A stretch of 28,693 bases of DNA from a virus, in IMG/VR virus record IMGVR_UViG_3300046817_000284, positions 1 through 28,693 of that record; one strand, given 5' to 3'. The position numbers were made by a program, and so were the translations under genes. The notes under the pieces are model-generated. The model had not been told where the DNA came from. It ran no database searches and was given only the letters and a program-made list of their open reading frames with translations. Of this stretch, positions 424 to 24,838 are shown in pieces. How positions within the stretch are numbered: the first letter of the stretch is position 1; each line of letters starts with the position of its first letter.

Positions 424-1530
424 TCACCGTGTTAACCAATCGAGGTTTAAGCGATTGGCATGGAGTTCGTACCATCCTTTTCCTTCATAAACGTCATGAA
501 CCATTTGGAAATACTCTTGGTACATTGTACTGACTCGTTCCATAGTAAAATTTTCATTCGCCCAATTGACACAATCCTGCGATCTGATTCGTTTGATATT
601 ATTAACGGCCCAGATAAAATGATCCATCGTCCGACAACGATACCCGGTTACTCCATGAATTACATTTTCTGTAGCCGCTCCCCAATCTACCGTGATAACC
701 GGAGTGCCTGAAAATGCCGCTTCTATTAATACTCCGTGAAATGGTTCAATATACCGGCTAGGAGCTATCAGTGTCTTGGCTCGAGATAAAAGACTACGAC
801 GTGTTTTCTTATCAGCAAAGCCAATAAACTCAACACCATCTGGCATATCTTCTTTCTTGCCAGCTCCAGCAACTATCAGACGATGATTTGTTACTCTAGC
901 AATTTCGGCAGCAATATCTAACCCTTTAGCAAAACAGGGACGTCCTAGCAGTAACAAGAAATCTTCTTTCTTTTCGTTGTAATCAAAATCTTTTGGATCA
1001 AAATAATTTGGGATTACGACATTATACCAATCAACATGACCAGCAATTTTGACTGCTTCTAACCCAGTCCAAGCATGAAGCATAGCATACGACTCAAAAA
1101 CCTTCCAACGTGCAAATGTCTGAGTATATCCTATCCCCGGTTCAACTGTTATCATATCGGGGTGAGCTTCAGCAATTGGCTTGTGTCCTGCTCCCCAAAA
1201 GCATAGTAGAAAGTCATTTGGTTGTTTTCGTGCAGCAACAGCAGAAATAGTATGAGTGTAAAATTTCTGGTAAACTGAATCAGTAAATTCATATTTATAA
1301 TCTCCTTTTCGTCCTGATGTGGCCCCATATTCTTTGATAAGATCTTTATGAGTAGTTACAGAAACATGTTCATTACATTTAACAACACTACGTTCATTCC
1401 CATAATGAATAACATGATGTCCAGTGTCATGAAGCATTCCGCACAACCGACGAACCTTCTGAGTAAAGGCACAGGCTCCATGCCATTCATTCGTGGCAGT
1501 ATGTGGAATACCTAGTGCGTGAAATCTCAT
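424..1530 (-). CDS. GT4-type glycosyltransferase, phage-borne
   Basis: The 368-residue protein has the two-domain GT-B look. The C-terminal half carries a sugar-nucleotide-binding domain with LLLLGRPCFAKGLDIA near residues 193-207 and the family-4 E-x7-E signature at E262 to E270 (IEPFHGVLIEAAFSGTP). The N-terminal half contains conserved blocks seen in phage relatives (start RFHALGIPH, QPNDFLLCFWGAGHKPI near 103-119, VEPGIGY near 129). GT4 enzymes are retaining and transfer a sugar from a nucleotide donor. In a phage the acceptor may be a virion glycan, modified DNA or a host surface polymer; the sequence does not decide. The ATG overlaps the stop of the upstream gene as ATGA, so it is translated with the fibre genes. 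Lacking signal peptide or membrane segment, it should act in the cytoplasm. Confidence 0.88.
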   Translation of the reverse strand: MRFHALGIPHTATNEWHGACAFTQKVRRLCGMLHDTGHHVIHYGNERSVVKCNEHVSVTTHKDLIKEYGATSGRKGDYKYEFTDSVYQKFYTHTISAVAARKQPNDFLLCFWGAGHKPIAEAHPDMITVEPGIGYTQTFARWKVFESYAMLHAWTGLEAVKIAGHVDWYNVVIPNYFDPKDFDYNEKKEDFLLLLGRPCFAKGLDIAAEIARVTNHRLIVAGAGKKEDMPDGVEFIGFADKKTRRSLLSRAKTLIAPSRYIEPFHGVLIEAAFSGTPVITVDWGAATENVIHGVTGYRCRTMDHFIWAVNNIKRIRSQDCVNWANENFTMERVSTMYQEYFQMVHDVYEGKGWYELHANRLNLDWLTR

Positions 1531-4582: not shown

Positions 4583-4877
4583 CTATCAATCTCCTTTGCG
4601 CTACTTCTGCCGCCGCCCCAACTGCTTGGAAGACACTGGTAACTACTCCATTACGAAATGTCTCAACCGCTGCTGCGGTCTGCCTGGATGTTTGCGCGTT
4701 TTCAATTAGAAGCATAGGAAGCAGAGCAATAGCACATCGCCAATCATCAATCATTTCTTCACTTTGTGGATTTTTACCAATAACTCGTGTCCACCAGGGA
4801 CATTTATGACAAACTTCACTAACATCCTGTTTATGTAGCGGACAGATTGGACCAGGTTCGGCGTGTGGAATAAGCAT
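4554..4877 (-). CDS. cysteine/histidine-cluster protein (putative metal site), function unknown
   Basis: The 107-residue protein's ATG overlaps the stop of the upstream fibre gene as TAATG. Near the N-terminus it has C12-x2-H15-x7-C23-x2-C26 (CPLHKQDVSEVCHKCPWW), four potential ligands spaced like a small zinc or iron site, with H24 as an alternative ligand. The rest is predicted helical: KNPQSEEMIDDWRCAIALLP followed by a long amphipathic helix around residues 45-100. The motif and the NPQSEE-x-IDDWRCA block are familiar from hypothetical proteins of other phages. No experimental function is known to me. It may be a fibre-assembly factor or a small regulator. The 29-base overlap with the next gene indicates coupled translation. 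Confidence 0.78.
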   Translation of the reverse strand: MLIPHAEPGPICPLHKQDVSEVCHKCPWWTRVIGKNPQSEEMIDDWRCAIALLPMLLIENAQTSRQTAAAVETFRNGVVTSVFQAVGAAAEVAQRRLIDASNNPRDR

Positions 4878-6163
4878 TAATTTTTACTCGCGATGATTAC
4901 ATCACAGTATTGAATATCCATTGTAATAGGATGATTATGAGCAGCACCACTCGTATTAGTTGAATTGACAGTAATATTAACGTTCGATTGACAATAATTT
5001 GCATAGCTTGAACTTCCAGTTGATTTAGCATGACTCGGGTCAGAACCAATAGCAGTTGCAGGATAAGACCATGCTCCAGCGCCCAACGGAAAATAAGCAC
5101 TACTCGGTGTGTATACCGTGATCAGATTGCCTTTACTACTAGTAATCAAAGGTATTTCAGCAGCAGAAAGAGTATGACCACCAACAACGCTTTGTGCCAT
5201 CACTATTGAAAATGCATTGGTGCCTCCGGCTACACCTCCAGTTCCACTGACAACACGCAATGCCTTATCATTCTGGGTCGTAACTTGTGTCCAACCAACT
5301 GGAGCAGCCGCCTGATAAAACAACATTACCGAGCCACTTGGAATACCTCCACTTACTGAATCTACATATTGCTTAGTCGCAGTACCTAGTGGAACTGTTG
5401 GATCAGCAGCAAGTAGCAATGGTCCAGTCAATGTGCCGCCGAGCAACGATAACACATTCTCCCATGCTCCATTTCTGCGACCATAACTTGTTCCATCACT
5501 CGGAGCATCTGCAAGTCCACCAGCACCAGCATGAGCGTCAACATATTGTTTAGTCGCAGCTTGTAAATTTGCAGTTGGATCTGCTGCCAACACCAATGGA
5601 CCGGTCATAGAGCCGCCTGCGGATAATAACGCCTTATCCGCATATTGTTTCGTCACAGTTCCAAGCGGAACAGTAGGATCAGCCGCCAGCAGCAATGGTC
5701 CTGTCATAGTGCCGCCAGCCAGTAGAAGTCTTCTATCTGTATACTGTTTAGTAGTAGCTCCAAGTGGAGTAGTAGGATCTGCTGCTAGAGCCAATGGTCC
5801 TGTTAAGGTTCCACCTGCTAAAGGAAGAAATGTTGCATTAATAGTGGTGATATAGTTATCTACATATGACTTTGTAGTTGCTCCTAAAGGATTAACTGGA
5901 GCTTCAGACAAGATCAATGGTCCTGTCATCGTTCCACCAGTATTAAGAAGATATTTGCTTATATTAACAAGAACTCCATCAACATATATAGACTTAGCAT
6001 TTAATGACCCTACTCCTTGATTTCCTCCTGTTGGAACTCCTATTATAATGCCTCCGGTAGTATAGGAAATATACCCGGGACCAATTCCCCATGGAGTTGG
6101 GAGAGAAAGCGGTCCTCCGGCTCCAGAGCCTAGAATACTTTCTTGGGGGGTTATATCAACCAT
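4877..6163 (-). CDS. tail fibre with five GGT(M/L)TGPL repeats and collar-like C-terminus
   Basis: The 428-residue protein starts at the ATG one base after the previous stop (TAA-A-ATG); a GTG 39 bases upstream would extend it but overlaps the upstream gene and is less likely. Residues 76-270 hold five copies of a 30-40 residue tail-fibre repeat (GG-(T/S)-(M/L)-TGPL-x2-AADPT-x-PLG-x2-TKQY-x-D), starting near 76, 117, 150, 183 and 242. Between the fourth and fifth lies DAPSDGTSYGRRNGAWENV, a short element common in fibres. The C-terminal 150 residues begin IPSGSVMLFYQAAAPVGWTQ, which resembles the tail-collar fold, and end with a His-containing segment (SGAAHNHPITMDIQYCDVI). It should form a trimeric rod with a distal tip that contacts the host. 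Confidence 0.88.
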   Translation of the reverse strand: MVDITPQESILGSGAGGPLSLPTPWGIGPGYISYTTGGIIIGVPTGGNQGVGSLNAKSIYVDGVLVNISKYLLNTGGTMTGPLILSEAPVNPLGATTKSYVDNYITTINATFLPLAGGTLTGPLALAADPTTPLGATTKQYTDRRLLLAGGTMTGPLLLAADPTVPLGTVTKQYADKALLSAGGSMTGPLVLAADPTANLQAATKQYVDAHAGAGGLADAPSDGTSYGRRNGAWENVLSLLGGTLTGPLLLAADPTVPLGTATKQYVDSVSGGIPSGSVMLFYQAAAPVGWTQVTTQNDKALRVVSGTGGVAGGTNAFSIVMAQSVVGGHTLSAAEIPLITSSKGNLITVYTPSSAYFPLGAGAWSYPATAIGSDPSHAKSTGSSSYANYCQSNVNITVNSTNTSGAAHNHPITMDIQYCDVIIASKN

Positions 6164-6164
6164 T

Positions 6165-6470
6165 TTATGCCCACTGAACAGCAGTGAATTGATGGTTAGC
6201 ACTTAAAGATGCCACACTAACCGTAGTAGTAGTATTGGGGATTACTGTGTATGATTGTCCAGGTTGAAGAGCTATGGTCGTTCCGTTAGCATGAACGTCA
6301 CATGGAGAGACCTGATTTACGAAAAGCACTTCAGCAGTGGCAAGACCCTGATCTACTGCTAAGAGTGGATTTACGATATATCCACCAGTCTGATTTGGAG
6401 CAATAACATTTACAGGAAGACCAGGAGTTCCGGCTGTTTGAGCTACTAGTCCAGCAAGAGGAGTAGACAT
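6165..6470 (-). CDS. stand-alone copy of the recurring ~70-aa virion domain
   Basis: The 101-residue protein has an ATG with AAAGGAA eight bases upstream. After a flexible start (LVAQTAGTPGLPV) residues 28-98 are one compact beta-rich unit: GGYIVNPLLAVDQGLATAE, LFVNQVSP, ALQPGQSYTVIP, then LSANHQFTAV. The same unit is embedded in the gpI-like protein (7994-9274, residues 37-108) and in the 435-aa protein (23531-24838, residues 93-164). Here it makes up nearly the whole protein. It sits between two fibre genes, so an adaptor or decoration role on fibre or baseplate is plausible. No enzymatic motif is present. I do not recognise a named family. Confidence 0.82.
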   Translation of the reverse strand: MSTPLAGLVAQTAGTPGLPVNVIAPNQTGGYIVNPLLAVDQGLATAEVLFVNQVSPCDVHANGTTIALQPGQSYTVIPNTTTTVSVASLSANHQFTAVQWA

Positions 6471-6501: not shown

Positions 6502-7983
6502 TTAAGATCTCCATCCACCACAAGAAGTTGAACTAGGGGGTTCAATAAATCCTCCTAAGGTGCAGTCACTATTAAACACTGCATTATTACCATTTTCAAA
6601 ATTTATACCACCAGCACGATAAACCGAATATGGGCGTCCAGTAACTACTGGTCCTGAAATACTACTAACAGCATCATAAATATGAGTAGTTCCACCATAA
6701 TCAGAAAAGAAGATTCCTATAGAAATACTGTAAGCCCCCATCATTTGTAAAGTAAATGGAATACTTGCCCCTATACTGGGAGTCGCTCCAAAGTTTTGAG
6801 TTCCACCAGAAAGACAGGTAAATATTTGAGTAATAGGAGCTGTGGCTGTAAACGTAAAAGCATTGTGAAATTGAGTAACTCCAGACTCCTGAGTATTAAC
6901 GACAGACTGAAAATTAGTAGGAGCATTTAAATGAATCGTATCAAGAATAAGTTTTCCTCTATTTAATACATTCTCGATGTATGATTTGAACGTAAATCCT
7001 GTTACAGTCATATTAGCAACATGACCACAATATATACAAACTCCTGGAGTAGCACCTGGAACATAGCTGGGGATACTAGAAGAACGACAATCTAAAATAC
7101 AATTTGCTGGAGTAGACACATTTCCTATTATTATCCATGAAGCAATATATTGAGTATCGTCTGAAAATCCACTAGTATAAGTTCCATCAGCAACTCTTAG
7201 AGTTATTGCAACTGCGGAAATATAACGATTTTTGATAGTATTTATCGCACCTTGAATTGTTTTAAAAGCATCTGTTGTCGTATTAAAGAATCCACTGTTA
7301 CTTTCCAAACCATTTGAATCAACAACACTAACAGAATCTGATCTAATATAAAAAGTCGTAACTGGAGCTTGCTGAGGCACATTTGAAATAGTCGATTGGA
7401 AAAATACCCCATTCCATATAAAAAGGTATTCTTGATTTGCTACGATATTACCTCCAATTAAATCAGATCCATTATTACGTTTAGCTAAGACCGCAGGCTT
7501 TCCATTTAGCGCCAAGTCAGTCGGTCCAGTGTTATTATTTTTGACTCTAATAGCGAACACCATTCCAAGAGCATAAGCAGCAGGAACAGGAATCGTATTG
7601 CAAACAATATGATTAGGATTTGTAGAAATATCATCTCCAACGTATAAATCAGTCGTATTAATAGGAACTGCGCCCTGTTGCGGGAAAGCTGCTAAAGTCC
7701 CCGCTGTTACTAAGTTAGCGAATATGTCACCAGAATTCCAAGCTAGAGGAGTTGTCCCTTCTTGACCACGAATTATCGTAGCAACATTACCGGTTATATT
7801 GGTAACGTGAACAATTTCATTTAGAGTTTTTGTTATTTGATCATAAAAGGTTGCAACAAAGTAATCACCAGCAGTTAATGGATGAGGAAATATTGTTCCT
7901 GATGCCAGAGTAACAGTTACATCCGTAGAAACAATACTTCCAGCAACAGTTGTGGACGCATTATTACTCCAAAGAATTGTCAT
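6502..7983 (-). CDS. tail fibre/spike with N-terminal attachment domain and beta-helix
   Basis: The 493-residue protein has an ATG preceded by AAGGAG with six-base spacing. Residues 1-100 resemble N-terminal fibre attachment domains: ILWSNNASTTVAGSI, a TVTLASGT strand, GDYFVATFYDQITKTLNEIV and ATIIRGQEGTTP-x2-WNSGD. Residues 105-205 form a second small domain (ALNGKPAVLAKRNNG). From about 225, FKTIQGAINTIKNRYIS opens a right-handed parallel beta-helix of the pectin-lyase type, with repeated short strands and asparagine/glycine turns to about 470. Such spikes usually bind, and sometimes cleave, surface polysaccharide. No catalytic pair can be assigned by eye. The C-terminus (SSTSCGGWRS) is Cys/Gly-rich. 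Confidence 0.85.
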   Translation of the reverse strand: MTILWSNNASTTVAGSIVSTDVTVTLASGTIFPHPLTAGDYFVATFYDQITKTLNEIVHVTNITGNVATIIRGQEGTTPLAWNSGDIFANLVTAGTLAAFPQQGAVPINTTDLYVGDDISTNPNHIVCNTIPVPAAYALGMVFAIRVKNNNTGPTDLALNGKPAVLAKRNNGSDLIGGNIVANQEYLFIWNGVFFQSTISNVPQQAPVTTFYIRSDSVSVVDSNGLESNSGFFNTTTDAFKTIQGAINTIKNRYISAVAITLRVADGTYTSGFSDDTQYIASWIIIGNVSTPANCILDCRSSSIPSYVPGATPGVCIYCGHVANMTVTGFTFKSYIENVLNRGKLILDTIHLNAPTNFQSVVNTQESGVTQFHNAFTFTATAPITQIFTCLSGGTQNFGATPSIGASIPFTLQMMGAYSISIGIFFSDYGGTTHIYDAVSSISGPVVTGRPYSVYRAGGINFENGNNAVFNSDCTLGGFIEPPSSTSCGGWRS

Positions 7984-7993
7984 GTCAGTCTCC

Positions 7994-9274
7994 TTATCCT
8001 ATGACACATGTGAAATTATATTGATACGGTACTTCCAAAACCCCTAACTTTAGTGCTTCTTTAAAAGTTTCCATGTAAGGGAGTGGAGGATAAGAAACAT
8101 AGGTAGTTTCCAAATCGTTTAAAGTAATCCCTTTCTTTGTTTCAGTCCCTATATCCCAAGGAGGAGAAATACCCCAAGCAGGTTCAAACCCGTTACATCC
8201 AAATTTATTCAACAAGCATCCACCTGTCACAGTTCGTTTCCCTAACACAAAACGAATAGTAACATTTCGTCCCGTTCCTAGTGTGACACTAATTTGTTCA
8301 GTATCTGCTATAGAATTATCATTCGGCCACCAATCAACAGATTCTGGCGATTTACCATCTATCCCATAAAGAAATCGCCATATCCGACGTTTAAACCAGA
8401 GAGTACTGAAATAATTGCCATCACCCTTATAGAAATGCCATGTAAGAACTCTACGATAGATGTCATCACTTGTGTTAAGAAGATTTTCAAAATCATATTG
8501 TCTTATTATATTAAGTCCAAATTCAACTTCCATGCCAGGAGTAAACGTATCCCACATTGGAACTAACCAATTAGGACCAAACGTATTTAAAGGACCAAAT
8601 AAACTCTTATATTCAGGTCCAATAACAGGACGTGCCATTCCGTATAGTCCGCGCCCAACCCAATCTAATAAAGCTCCAGCAACAATAGGACCAGTATAAA
8701 TAGGAAGATTTAATGCATTGAATGTATCAACATAATCCTGTTGCATCTGATTTTGAGCTTTAACAAATTCTTGTAAGTCATCATCATCAGAATATTCTTG
8801 GTATAAATACGATGGAATTACTTCTGTCAACCCAGTTACATGTGATGGAGGAAATGGTAGTGATCCAGCTTCTGCTCCCAATGCCGATTGCCCACTTCCA
8901 GGCACTCCAGGAACAGGATTAGGTAGAAGATTAACTTTATATGTAGAAGCAAAGAAAGAAGTAAATTTGTGATTAGCAGAAAGAGCATTAACCCAAACAT
9001 TCATTTTAGGTGGAACTGAAAACATTTGTCCTGGGACTAGTTCCGTATTCCCTGGGACAATTACTGATGTAGATGCAGGTCCAAGTAAACTAACAAACAA
9101 TGATTCAGCAACTTGAATTCCTTGATCATCTGCTGTTAGTGGATTAACAATAATCCCACCAAGTTCGTTCATTAAAATGTTAGTTCCAGAAATACTACTC
9201 GTAATGTTCGCAACTTGAACAGAAGTTCTTGCAATTAAAACTTTAGATGTAAGTCCAGGAATAAGAAATTTCAT
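7994..9274 (-). CDS. baseplate tail protein (gpI-like position) carrying the recurring domain
   Basis: The 426-residue protein overlaps baseplate J as ATGA, the usual place of the gpI-type protein that joins J to the fibres. Residues 37-108 are the recurring domain (GGIIVNPLTADDQGIQVAES to ALSANHKFT). After a Gly/Pro linker, residues 150-215 are helical and acidic (YSDDDDLQEFVKAQNQMQQD). The core around 250-330 includes TSDDIYRRVLTWHFYKGDGN and LWFKRRIWRFLYG, which resemble tail proteins of this position in other myophages. The C-terminus, near 330-426, is beta-rich (ISVTLGTGRNVTIRFVLG). The likely role is linking baseplate wedge and fibres. The N-terminal extra domain may serve as a docking site. 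Confidence 0.8.
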   Translation of the reverse strand: MKFLIPGLTSKVLIARTSVQVANITSSISGTNILMNELGGIIVNPLTADDQGIQVAESLFVSLLGPASTSVIVPGNTELVPGQMFSVPPKMNVWVNALSANHKFTSFFASTYKVNLLPNPVPGVPGSGQSALGAEAGSLPFPPSHVTGLTEVIPSYLYQEYSDDDDLQEFVKAQNQMQQDYVDTFNALNLPIYTGPIVAGALLDWVGRGLYGMARPVIGPEYKSLFGPLNTFGPNWLVPMWDTFTPGMEVEFGLNIIRQYDFENLLNTSDDIYRRVLTWHFYKGDGNYFSTLWFKRRIWRFLYGIDGKSPESVDWWPNDNSIADTEQISVTLGTGRNVTIRFVLGKRTVTGGCLLNKFGCNGFEPAWGISPPWDIGTETKKGITLNDLETTYVSYPPLPYMETFKEALKLGVLEVPYQYNFTCVIG

Positions 9275-10731
9275 CTTATTCCACCTAATATTTGAATCAG
9301 ACTATTTTCTGTATAGAAATAACTATATGGATCACCAAATATAGCTTGAGTACCACCAGCCGGAGACTGTGGAATTCCATTGATACTTATAGACCATTCT
9401 AAATCTATAATAAATTCACCAACTACTAACATAGAAACTGCATCCAGAAAAACTTTATTCAGCACATTTAAATTGATTGGAGTTGTCCCTGCCGGTAATG
9501 AATTAATGTAGTCTATAATCGCACTTACTGCTGCTTGAGCAATAGCATCAGGAGATACATAATTAGGTGAGTCTGTTATCCATACAACAGTCATACTAAC
9601 AAGTTCTTGTGGGGGAATAACAAATGGGACAACATATGTATCCGGAAAATCTGATATAGAAATTTCGACATTGATAGGATTTGGAGTTACAATACCTCCA
9701 TAAGCATACAAACCAGAATTCGTTGTATCTACAGGAATAGTAAACTGTTTATCAGGGATTGAACCAAGGCTCGATGGAAAAGCTGTTCTAAAAGTTGTTA
9801 TTGGATATGGAGTATTGGTCACCCCACCAATCATTCCAACTACACCAATTATCGTTTCTATATCACCATCCAAAAGATTATGATTATTTGCACAAGTGAC
9901 AATTGCTGGATTAGAATTACTTATATTCGTAATCTCGATTGTTGCCCCAGTTAAACCAGGAACATTAAAATCAGCTTGCCAAATAGCATTAGCGACTTGA
10001 TAAGGATCACCTCCACCAACAATTACGACATATTGACTTCTTACTGTTTGAACAGAAACTAGTCTGTTTTGAACACCTGGAACATTTCCACACAAAGTTT
10101 TCAGGTAACGCCCCATTCCGGTAGAAGCTGCTAATCCTGCAGTCCAACAACGTTCACGAAAAACGCTGATTGGTTCTCCAGTAAGAGACGGAATACCAGA
10201 AATAGGATTTGTTACAGAAAGAGGAATATTAGCAGGGACAGAAGTTATCATTTGAACTACTGTATTCGGTAGAACTTCCCATGATCCTTCCTGAGTCGCC
10301 AAAGCATACATCAACAATGAATTCCTATCTACCCCACAAACTCCACTAGTTTGACAGATATACTGATAAGTTCCATCCGAAACAACAAATCCTTGTGAAA
10401 TTACATATCCTGGAGGTCCTGAAAAAATCACGTAGACCGCAGTATTGGTGATTGGTTGTTTATCTACTCCATACAAAATACCAAGTTGATTTAATAAATA
10501 AGGATTAGCTCCCAATGGGGTAACAGAATTCACGAGGTCTACAAGAAAACTGTCACTTTCAACAAGAGCAAATGTATCAGTGCTGGCAATATCTTCAATT
10601 AATGTTCCAGGTAAATTCGCAGTGTAATCAGGATTAGTGGCCGCTACAAGTGCAATCAACGCTGCTCGCAAATCAGAAGGAGCTGCTGGTTGCAGTCCTT
10701 GAGGTGTCATTACAAGAGGAAGAACTGCCAT
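9271..10731 (-). CDS. baseplate J-like protein
   Basis: The 486-residue protein shows the baseplate-J layout. The N-terminus has TNPDYTANLPGTLIEDIAST and a helix with NQLGILYGV. The middle has PGYVISQGFVVSD and the J-typical GEPISVFRERCW-x4-AASTGMGRYL segment (about 186-210), followed by GVQNRLVSV. The C-terminal part has IPPQELVSMTVVW and AAVSAIIDYINSLPAGTTPINLNVL. Around residues 264-350 an extra beta-domain interrupts the fold (IVTCANNHNLLDGD to TNSGLYAYGG), similar in pattern to the small inserted domains of other phage structural proteins. J proteins form the wedge ring that switches during contraction. It lies four bases from the gp25-like gene and overlaps the gpI-like gene. Confidence 0.9.
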   Translation of the reverse strand: MAVLPLVMTPQGLQPAAPSDLRAALIALVAATNPDYTANLPGTLIEDIASTDTFALVESDSFLVDLVNSVTPLGANPYLLNQLGILYGVDKQPITNTAVYVIFSGPPGYVISQGFVVSDGTYQYICQTSGVCGVDRNSLLMYALATQEGSWEVLPNTVVQMITSVPANIPLSVTNPISGIPSLTGEPISVFRERCWTAGLAASTGMGRYLKTLCGNVPGVQNRLVSVQTVRSQYVVIVGGGDPYQVANAIWQADFNVPGLTGATIEITNISNSNPAIVTCANNHNLLDGDIETIIGVVGMIGGVTNTPYPITTFRTAFPSSLGSIPDKQFTIPVDTTNSGLYAYGGIVTPNPINVEISISDFPDTYVVPFVIPPQELVSMTVVWITDSPNYVSPDAIAQAAVSAIIDYINSLPAGTTPINLNVLNKVFLDAVSMLVVGEFIIDLEWSISINGIPQSPAGGTQAIFGDPYSYFYTENSLIQILGGIR

Positions 10732-23530: not shown

Positions 23531-24838
23531 TTAGTCACCAGTTATCCACTGGAGCTGATTCTGAACGATAGCATGTTTGATAAACTGCCGTGCTATATCT
23601 CGACTTGTTCCTTGCAGATAGTTAACAAGAAATTCAATTGTTTTATATTTAGAAAGAATACGAAATTCAGCTTGCTTGGCTTTTTCATCCTTAACATTTG
23701 GACTGTTAGCCATTCCTATAGTCATCCAATCACGAGAATACTGACTCACAAAAGCCACAAAATTATCAGATACGGTATTATCTGCACCATACAAATGAAT
23801 CTTCACACGATCTCTACACAGGCTAGCAGACTGTAATCGTGGCCCATAATAAGGACTCATTTCTAACGTCGTAGTTTCCTCAATATGTACAGAACCAAAT
23901 GGAGGAGGAAGATTATCATCAACCAAATAAGAAGGATAAAGAGGAACAGGGCAAGTAAATCCAGGGTATGGAGGCACATAGATCGGCATATACAACCAGA
24001 TTGGTAGCGAATTAGAAACAATCAACGAAGGATTAAATTGAGATGGATCGTCGATAATTTGAGTTGCACTCTTACTAAAAAGTGCATTCCCACGATAATG
24101 ATAAAGATCAGCTTGTTCATATAAACGACCACGCGCAGAAAATGCAAATATCAAATCACGATAATGACAAACATACATGAAGTCTGGGCCGATTTGATTA
24201 AATTCCTGGATTTCTGAAAGAGAAGTGAAAATCACTTCATTAGTATCATATGTTGAATCTACTTCTTGTTCTATTTCTGTTACATAATGAAAAGAACCTT
24301 TTACTTGTACATCAGTCGGCAATGTTACAGACGTAATAGTTTTCTGTAGAATACACGTGAATTTATGGCCTCCATGAGCAGAACAGACCCATGCTCCAGT
24401 CGTTAGGTTAGCCGGAATATCAATACTTTCTCCTGGTAAAAGTTCTACAGTAGTTCCTGTAACATGGGAATACGCCGGACCCGTAAAATCTACAAACAAA
24501 GATTCCACTATAGCAAGCCCTTGATCAGAAGCTAACAATGGATTAATTATACGACCTCCCACTATATCAGCAGCACCTAAATTCCCAGGTGAAACTTGTC
24601 TCGCTTCTTTATCTTTTAGTGTTTGTGGAAATCCTGCTCTTGTCCGAATACCAGGAGTTGTAACATTGCCAGTACTAGATGGAACTCTAAGCCAATAGAC
24701 CATACCATCTAACGGAAACACATATCGATTGTACAATGAAAATGATAACTCTTGATCCACCGACAGGGTATTGACCCCTGCCGCAAGAGCAGCCCCAAGA
24801 GGGGGTTTAGCACCAAGAGTTTCAAATATAGAAGGCAT
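23531..24838 (-). CDS. virion protein of neck/tail region carrying the recurring domain
   Basis: The 435-residue protein has an ATG overlapping the preceding stop as TAATG. Its start (MPSIFETLGAKPPLGAALAA, then NRYVFPLDGMVYWLRVP) resembles structural proteins encoded between head-completion genes and sheath in DUF3383-type phages. Residues 93-164 are the recurring domain (GGRIINPLLASDQGLAIVES to HGGHKFTCIL). The second half has EIEQEVDSTYDTNEVIFTSL, then YQ/YH-type strands and a Pro-rich part (PIYVPPYPGFTCPVPLYPSY), ending in a helical segment (YLQGTSRDIARQFIKHAIVQ). A neck, tail-terminator or sheath-initiator role is possible from position. No catalytic motif is seen. Confidence 0.75.
   Translation of the reverse strand: MPSIFETLGAKPPLGAALAAGVNTLSVDQELSFSLYNRYVFPLDGMVYWLRVPSSTGNVTTPGIRTRAGFPQTLKDKEARQVSPGNLGAADIVGGRIINPLLASDQGLAIVESLFVDFTGPAYSHVTGTTVELLPGESIDIPANLTTGAWVCSAHGGHKFTCILQKTITSVTLPTDVQVKGSFHYVTEIEQEVDSTYDTNEVIFTSLSEIQEFNQIGPDFMYVCHYRDLIFAFSARGRLYEQADLYHYRGNALFSKSATQIIDDPSQFNPSLIVSNSLPIWLYMPIYVPPYPGFTCPVPLYPSYLVDDNLPPPFGSVHIEETTTLEMSPYYGPRLQSASLCRDRVKIHLYGADNTVSDNFVAFVSQYSRDWMTIGMANSPNVKDEKAKQAEFRILSKYKTIEFLVNYLQGTSRDIARQFIKHAIVQNQLQWITGD

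Follow-up and report, generated by a model that had tools for sequence, protein, structure and literature searches.

Why should one small domain occur in proteins of the neck, of the baseplate and of the fibre locus in a single phage? The window, by which we mean the whole stretch of DNA analysed, is a 28.7 kb (28,693 nucleotides) IMG/VR virus record of an uncultured tailed phage. Its virion genes lie on the minus strand in the order major capsid, connector proteins, a 435-aa neck protein, a 110-aa protein and the sheath, followed by a small protein (likely the tube), the tape measure, baseplate proteins including gpJ and a 426-aa gpI-like protein, then by a 493-aa fibre-like protein, a 101-aa protein, a repeat-bearing fibre, a collagen-like fibre and a glycosyltransferase. 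An earlier note on this DNA had claimed that a domain of about 70 residues recurs in three virion proteins, from the neck, the baseplate and the fibre region, at 6177-6386, 8951-9160 and 24350-24559. One homologous module is indeed found in all three hosts, exactly at these coordinates, and the features that matter here are the following:

4877-6163, minus strand: tail-fibre protein, 428 aa, with five repeats (phrog_16641 tail fiber; start ATG)
6165-6470, minus strand: standalone module gene (copy 1), 101 aa, flanked by two tail-fibre genes; core 6177-6386 (ORF and alignment)
6502-7983, minus strand: tail-fibre-like protein, 493 aa, free of the module and lying between copies 1 and 2 (phrog_8469 tail fiber, E 3e-15)
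7994-9274, minus strand: gpI-like/phrog_8212 baseplate protein, 426 aa, directly after baseplate gpJ (9271-10731)
8951-9235, minus strand: N-terminal module copy in the gpI-like protein (copy 2); core 8951-9160 (alignment)
23531-24838, minus strand: neck protein, 435 aa (phrog_6359)
24314-24679, minus strand: in-frame insertion in the neck protein (residues 54-175, about 122 in all) that contains copy 3; core 24350-24559

Sequence comparison establishes the three segments as copies of one module. All are read from the minus strand, the same coordinates being stop-rich on the plus strand, and the reverse complement encodes GGYIVNPLLAVDQG...HQFTAV in the standalone copy, GGIIVNPLTADDQG...HKFTSFF in the gpI copy and GGRIINPLLASDQG...HKFTCI in the neck copy. 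Pairwise BLASTP gives 43-48% identity between copies with E values from 1e-16 to 1e-22, the copy alignments score 137, 172 and 147 against a mean near 26 and maxima of 45-53 for shuffles, and 24 columns are invariant across the three. The similarity noted at the DNA level is also real, with an aligned DNA identity of 64-68%, well over shuffles. Chance similarity is ruled out by the shuffles together with HMM scores, and an HMM built from the three copies detects no fourth one in the window. Small phage proteins often have jelly-roll folds, and it could be argued that the resemblance is merely a generic beta-sandwich pattern or chance, with no functional link; the level of identity, the invariant columns and the orthologues of each copy across dozens of contigs make such a reading scarcely credible. 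Recurrence in three proteins thus stands, while the size of the unit has to be corrected. Group alignments place the start of the conserved unit about 25 residues ahead of the GG motif, with the strand pattern VxTGGTxV-x-AI-x8-GG, and its end just past H-x-F-(T/S)-x-V, so that the module is nearer 95 residues than 70.

In the fibre locus the module makes up nearly all of the 101-aa protein, as had been supposed. A good ribosome-binding site (AAAAGGAACATCCAATG) precedes its gene, dozens of contigs contain orthologues, and the gene of the 428-aa fibre begins 1 nt past the stop codon of the 101-aa gene. Among seven related contigs the standalone protein shows a mean identity of 71%, versus 65% for the body of the neck protein and 62% for that of the gpI-like protein; the gpI copies of the module are strongly divergent (mean 51% identity). 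As to the fibres on either side, the 493-aa protein is 45-52% identical to its orthologues in the contigs compared, and the 428-aa protein displays partial similarity in most of them, mainly over its first ~150-270 aa. The stronger conservation of the standalone copy relative to the fibres beside it speaks against a determinant of receptor specificity and fits generic adhesion or docking alike; the idea of a hypervariable receptor-specificity head is therefore unsupported.

In the baseplate protein the module appears as an N-terminal addition relative to homologues without it. The body of the gpI-like protein outside the module matches phrog_8212 (E 1e-41, residues 150-335), and its cultured homologues, among them a Pantoea phage PdC23 protein annotated DUF2612, align from residue 141-149 onward, i.e. 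past the module. Two records (L032:9953-11548 and L035:9950-11566) encode gpI-like proteins about 100 aa longer than that of the window, with an extra body insertion apparently unrelated to the module. In the adjoining gpJ (9271-10731, minus strand), residues 273-349 resemble the E1_FCCH domain, below the curated cut-off, and are possibly another inserted module.

The neck copy presents itself, by alignment with homologues devoid of the module, as a clean in-frame insertion into a tail-terminator-like protein. Outside the module the protein matches phrog_6359 with an E value of 7e-77, and its residues 276-410 align to many phage neck/tail-terminator chains with Z of about 7-8.8 (Foldseek, VIA-align; the model is of moderate quality, pLDDT 66). 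Tail terminators form hexameric rings in solved relatives. In neck homologues of 351 aa (L026, L028 and L030), MVYWIRQP is joined directly to VQGSLH, exactly where the window protein has some 120 extra residues, and matches from cultured phages begin at residue 169-174.

The distribution of the module among relatives is nested. Fourteen cultured-phage records contain homologues of both host proteins, including Pantoea PdC23, Klebsiella Chronis, RothC and RothD, Shewanella QDWS and several Yersinia phages; their matches start past the module in the neck and gpI-like proteins, so the module is missing from both (of the Rac-SA53 prophage record, only these two host proteins were considered). With five module-bearing queries, tblastn gave no relevant match in 50,697 isolate-phage records; the module was not found in plasmids, nor in bacterial and archaeal genome contigs by two pattern-based scans, whose narrow patterns make this a weak negative. 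Among contigs of IMG/VR it is frequent, and within this phage group it occupies the same three genes. No copy occurs in PdC23 and in three contigs (G012-G014); two contigs carry only the standalone copy, with gpI-like and neck proteins free of the module (G053, G054); nine carry the standalone and gpI copies (G001, G007, G042, G044, G047-G049, G051, G052), their neck protein measuring 346-383 aa and lacking the module; and exactly three copies are present in near-complete contigs of 75-79 kb (G002, G004, G005, G006), as well as in further contigs spanning all loci. Where a record had fewer copies than the rest of its group, its coordinates indicated that it stops short of the missing locus. 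The existence of host proteins without the module, in cultured phages and, for the neck protein, in two-copy relatives, implies that it is dispensable for assembly in general.

The trees are informative on the order of gain. When the body of the neck protein is used for the tree, proteins with the domain group in one clade (95/87) whose sister, G050-G052, is domain-less. In the domain tree, which rests on only about 100 columns, the neck copies likewise form one clade (98/97), which groups with the gpI copies of the sister lineage G050-G052 (100/94), not with those of its own clade, and the standalone copies occupy a separate region. Since the neck domains are closest to gpI domains of the sister lineage, the neck copy probably derives from gpI, and the two trees would be most simply read as a single insertion of a gpI-type copy into the neck protein. 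The exact donor is unsettled, because the gpI copies of the window clade lie just outside the group formed by the neck and sister-gpI domains. Ongoing gene conversion between the copies is unsupported, as they cluster by host gene. Taken with the nested distribution, this suggests a stepwise spread along the tail: the fibre locus would at first have encoded the module as a small protein associated with the virion; the module would then have been joined to the baseplate protein beside the fibres, and a further copy, with gpI as its probable source, would next have entered a loop of the neck/tail-terminator ring. With relatives at zero, one, two and three copies and domain-less cultured homologues, this phage group provides a clear record of a virion gaining a putative surface module.

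The predicted fold of the module is, with confidence, a small all-beta jelly-roll. The AlphaFold2 model of the 101-aa protein, built with 57 aligned sequences, is all beta with pLDDT 96 and pTM 0.86. The possibility that the copies would be predicted with unrelated folds was checked on the two that were modelled, both as single chains, and residues 61-174 of the neck protein, i.e. the insertion, align to the set of jelly-roll chains that the standalone protein also matches. Among solved structures, the nearest are jelly-roll/double-stranded beta-helix (DSBH) proteins with VIA-align Z of about 6-8, namely a designed DSBH, Ena endospore-appendage subunits, cupins, a vitamin-K-dependent carboxylase domain and the PM2 spike P1; since Z values of this size arise from a common arrangement alone, we state the fold class and not kinship. 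Among predicted viral structures the nearest are phage proteins, many of them small, that have not been characterised.

The earlier reader recognised no named family, and searches by sequence against Pfam, NCBIfam and the PDB agree, giving no significant match. PHROG 22789 (100 aa, no described function) is possibly a distant standalone relative, to judge from weak matches of 29 of the 57 members (best E 3.8e-7; 0.05 for the window copy). At an E value of 0.1, the module has no match to any Ig/BIG/FN3 family in Pfam or NCBIfam, and its 57 members have none to CBM models or to Ena/DUF3992 in Pfam; Ig-fold chains are absent among the fold matches listed, which are jelly-roll/DSBH. Ena/DUF3992 proteins (7a02, 9i0y, 9t3p) are small jelly-roll subunits, a fold predicted for the module too, with VIA-align Z of 6-7 to the standalone model; for Ena 7a02 the figures are Z 7.1 and rmsd 3.1 over 84 residues, which is in the common-arrangement range. 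They differ from it by the missing sequence match, and 91 of 128 module sequences are cysteine-free. The cupin superfamily is also a fold neighbour, its DSBH chains reaching Z of about 7, under the level that separates kinship from common arrangement. Cupin_1 is hit by two of the 57 members (best E 0.0013), reflecting a weak echo of the PG-x-x-IPP motif in a minority, and this does not amount to a significant family assignment. A metal-binding cupin enzyme can be rejected, as the HxHx3-4E and PxGxxHxxxN motifs, and HxH, occur in none of the 128 module sequences.

The family extends beyond this phage group and is widespread in uncultured phages, so that a profile could annotate many 'hypothetical' proteins of fibre loci. 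Distant members are small fibre-locus proteins (L139, L180), and the fibre/spike neighbourhood recurs in other phages (L139, L180, L205). The link to fibres is not universal: in one contig (L138:9884-10231) a standalone module gene encoding a 115-aa protein is located in the head region, with head-morphogenesis and major-capsid genes on either side. Elsewhere the module is found at the C-terminus of proteins with apparent signal peptides (L012, L124, L130, L187, L193, L203, L205), some of which adjoin tail spikes or ejection proteins of other phage types. In three of them (L012, L124, L130) there are two cysteines at matching positions, one in GC-Y and one before the P turn, a pair that would suit an exported, oxidised protein. 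For such putatively exported phage proteins with a virion-type module, particle decoration does not explain the apparent signal peptides.

Accessory modules common to several virion proteins are of an already known kind. A review by Fraser and colleagues reportedly describes Ig-like domains on virion proteins of tailed phages, T4 Hoc and others. Both these and the module are promiscuous, dispensable beta domains in several unrelated virion proteins, surface-exposed in the case of the Ig-like ones, whereas the module belongs by prediction to a different fold class, a cupin/Ena-type jelly-roll, and has no Ig-family sequence match. The 936 lactococcal siphophages offer another parallel, as they carry CBMs at the neck (neck passage structure, NPS), on the tail tube (MTP extension) and at the baseplate (Dit), and GFP fusions of these CBMs bound host cells; decorations at all three sites were found in only one of 113 phages, NPS decoration generally excluding the others (PMC6669499). 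Like the module, these CBMs are accessory, are located at the neck, tail or baseplate of one phage group and are present or absent between relatives. The 936 modules are, however, of several kinds, rarely found together, and their binding was proposed and partly shown. In the window clade a single module family occupies all three places in a nested manner, in contigs that reach them. What is new is the module family itself, its simultaneous presence at the neck, at the baseplate and in the fibre locus, and a series of intermediates that survives among relatives.

What would a phage gain from the same module at neck and baseplate? This testable question is raised by the recurrence of the module in different virion structural proteins, the three of the window and their orthologues. 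Our leading but tentative answer, to which we give slightly less than an even chance, is a virion-surface accessory attachment module. Its insertion in a loop and its terminal position would be consistent with exposure on the outer surface, and the module may thus sit outside the particle at baseplate, neck and fibres and help in attachment, a reading less secure than that of the stepwise spread. There it would bind weakly and multivalently to a ligand widespread on cell surfaces or in the matrix, much like the Ig-like domains and carbohydrate-binding modules of other phages, host specificity staying with the variable fibre ends. Accessory attachment is best supported by the terminal or loop position, the dispensability, the repeated placement at baseplate and neck and the precedent of the 936-phage CBMs; no ligand, carbohydrate-binding family or binding residue has been identified for the module. 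The head-region gene of L138 and the copies behind apparent signal peptides count against this reading.

The same sites, i.e. a baseplate protein beside fibre genes, the neck and the fibre locus itself, could also be those of a docking socket for a shared virion partner, either a tail fibre or the standalone protein's own oligomer. One appendage would then be held both at the baseplate, through gpI, and at the neck, with an effect comparable to that of the T4 whiskers, which hold the retracted long tail fibres. The conservation of the standalone copy relative to the variable fibres is as expected of a docking partner, the next fibre downstream keeps a conserved N-terminus, and, in contigs reaching all loci, a neck copy is always accompanied by gpI and standalone copies. 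On the other hand, the divergence of the gpI copies, the occurrence of the module in other kinds of phages and in signal-peptide proteins, where a co-inherited partner is not evident, and the fact that no binding partner has been identified make docking a doubtful candidate. Structural reinforcement, in which the module would widen or stabilise the hexameric neck and baseplate rings through oligomerisation or packing and the standalone copy would act as a cement, strikes us as less probable still. The resemblance of the neck host to a tail terminator would agree with it, as would the standalone gene among head genes in L138 and the behaviour of jelly-roll subunits such as Ena1B (7a02), which polymerises; yet cultured phages have the same host proteins free of the module, as do two-copy relatives in the case of the neck. 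Also unlikely, though the most far-reaching, is the proposal that the module is a common socket by which the same fibre or ligand would be held at both ends of a contractile tail, having been copied stepwise from the fibre locus to the baseplate and to the neck ring. It would then be a new counterpart of whisker/collar control of fibres, its intermediates surviving in living relatives.

Some minor observations concern the fibre locus itself. The five repeats of the 428-aa fibre are of the type TGPLLLAADPTxPLGTxTKQYVD and may be a recombination hotspot. Further along, a 368-aa glycosyltransferase (window 424-1530, minus strand; Pfam Glyco_trans_1_4, E 7e-14) is encoded near the 795-aa collagen-like fibre, and glycosylation of the fibre is possible. 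A comparable arrangement is seen in L180, in which a beta-1,4-glycosyltransferase lies beside a collagen-like fibre and a standalone module.
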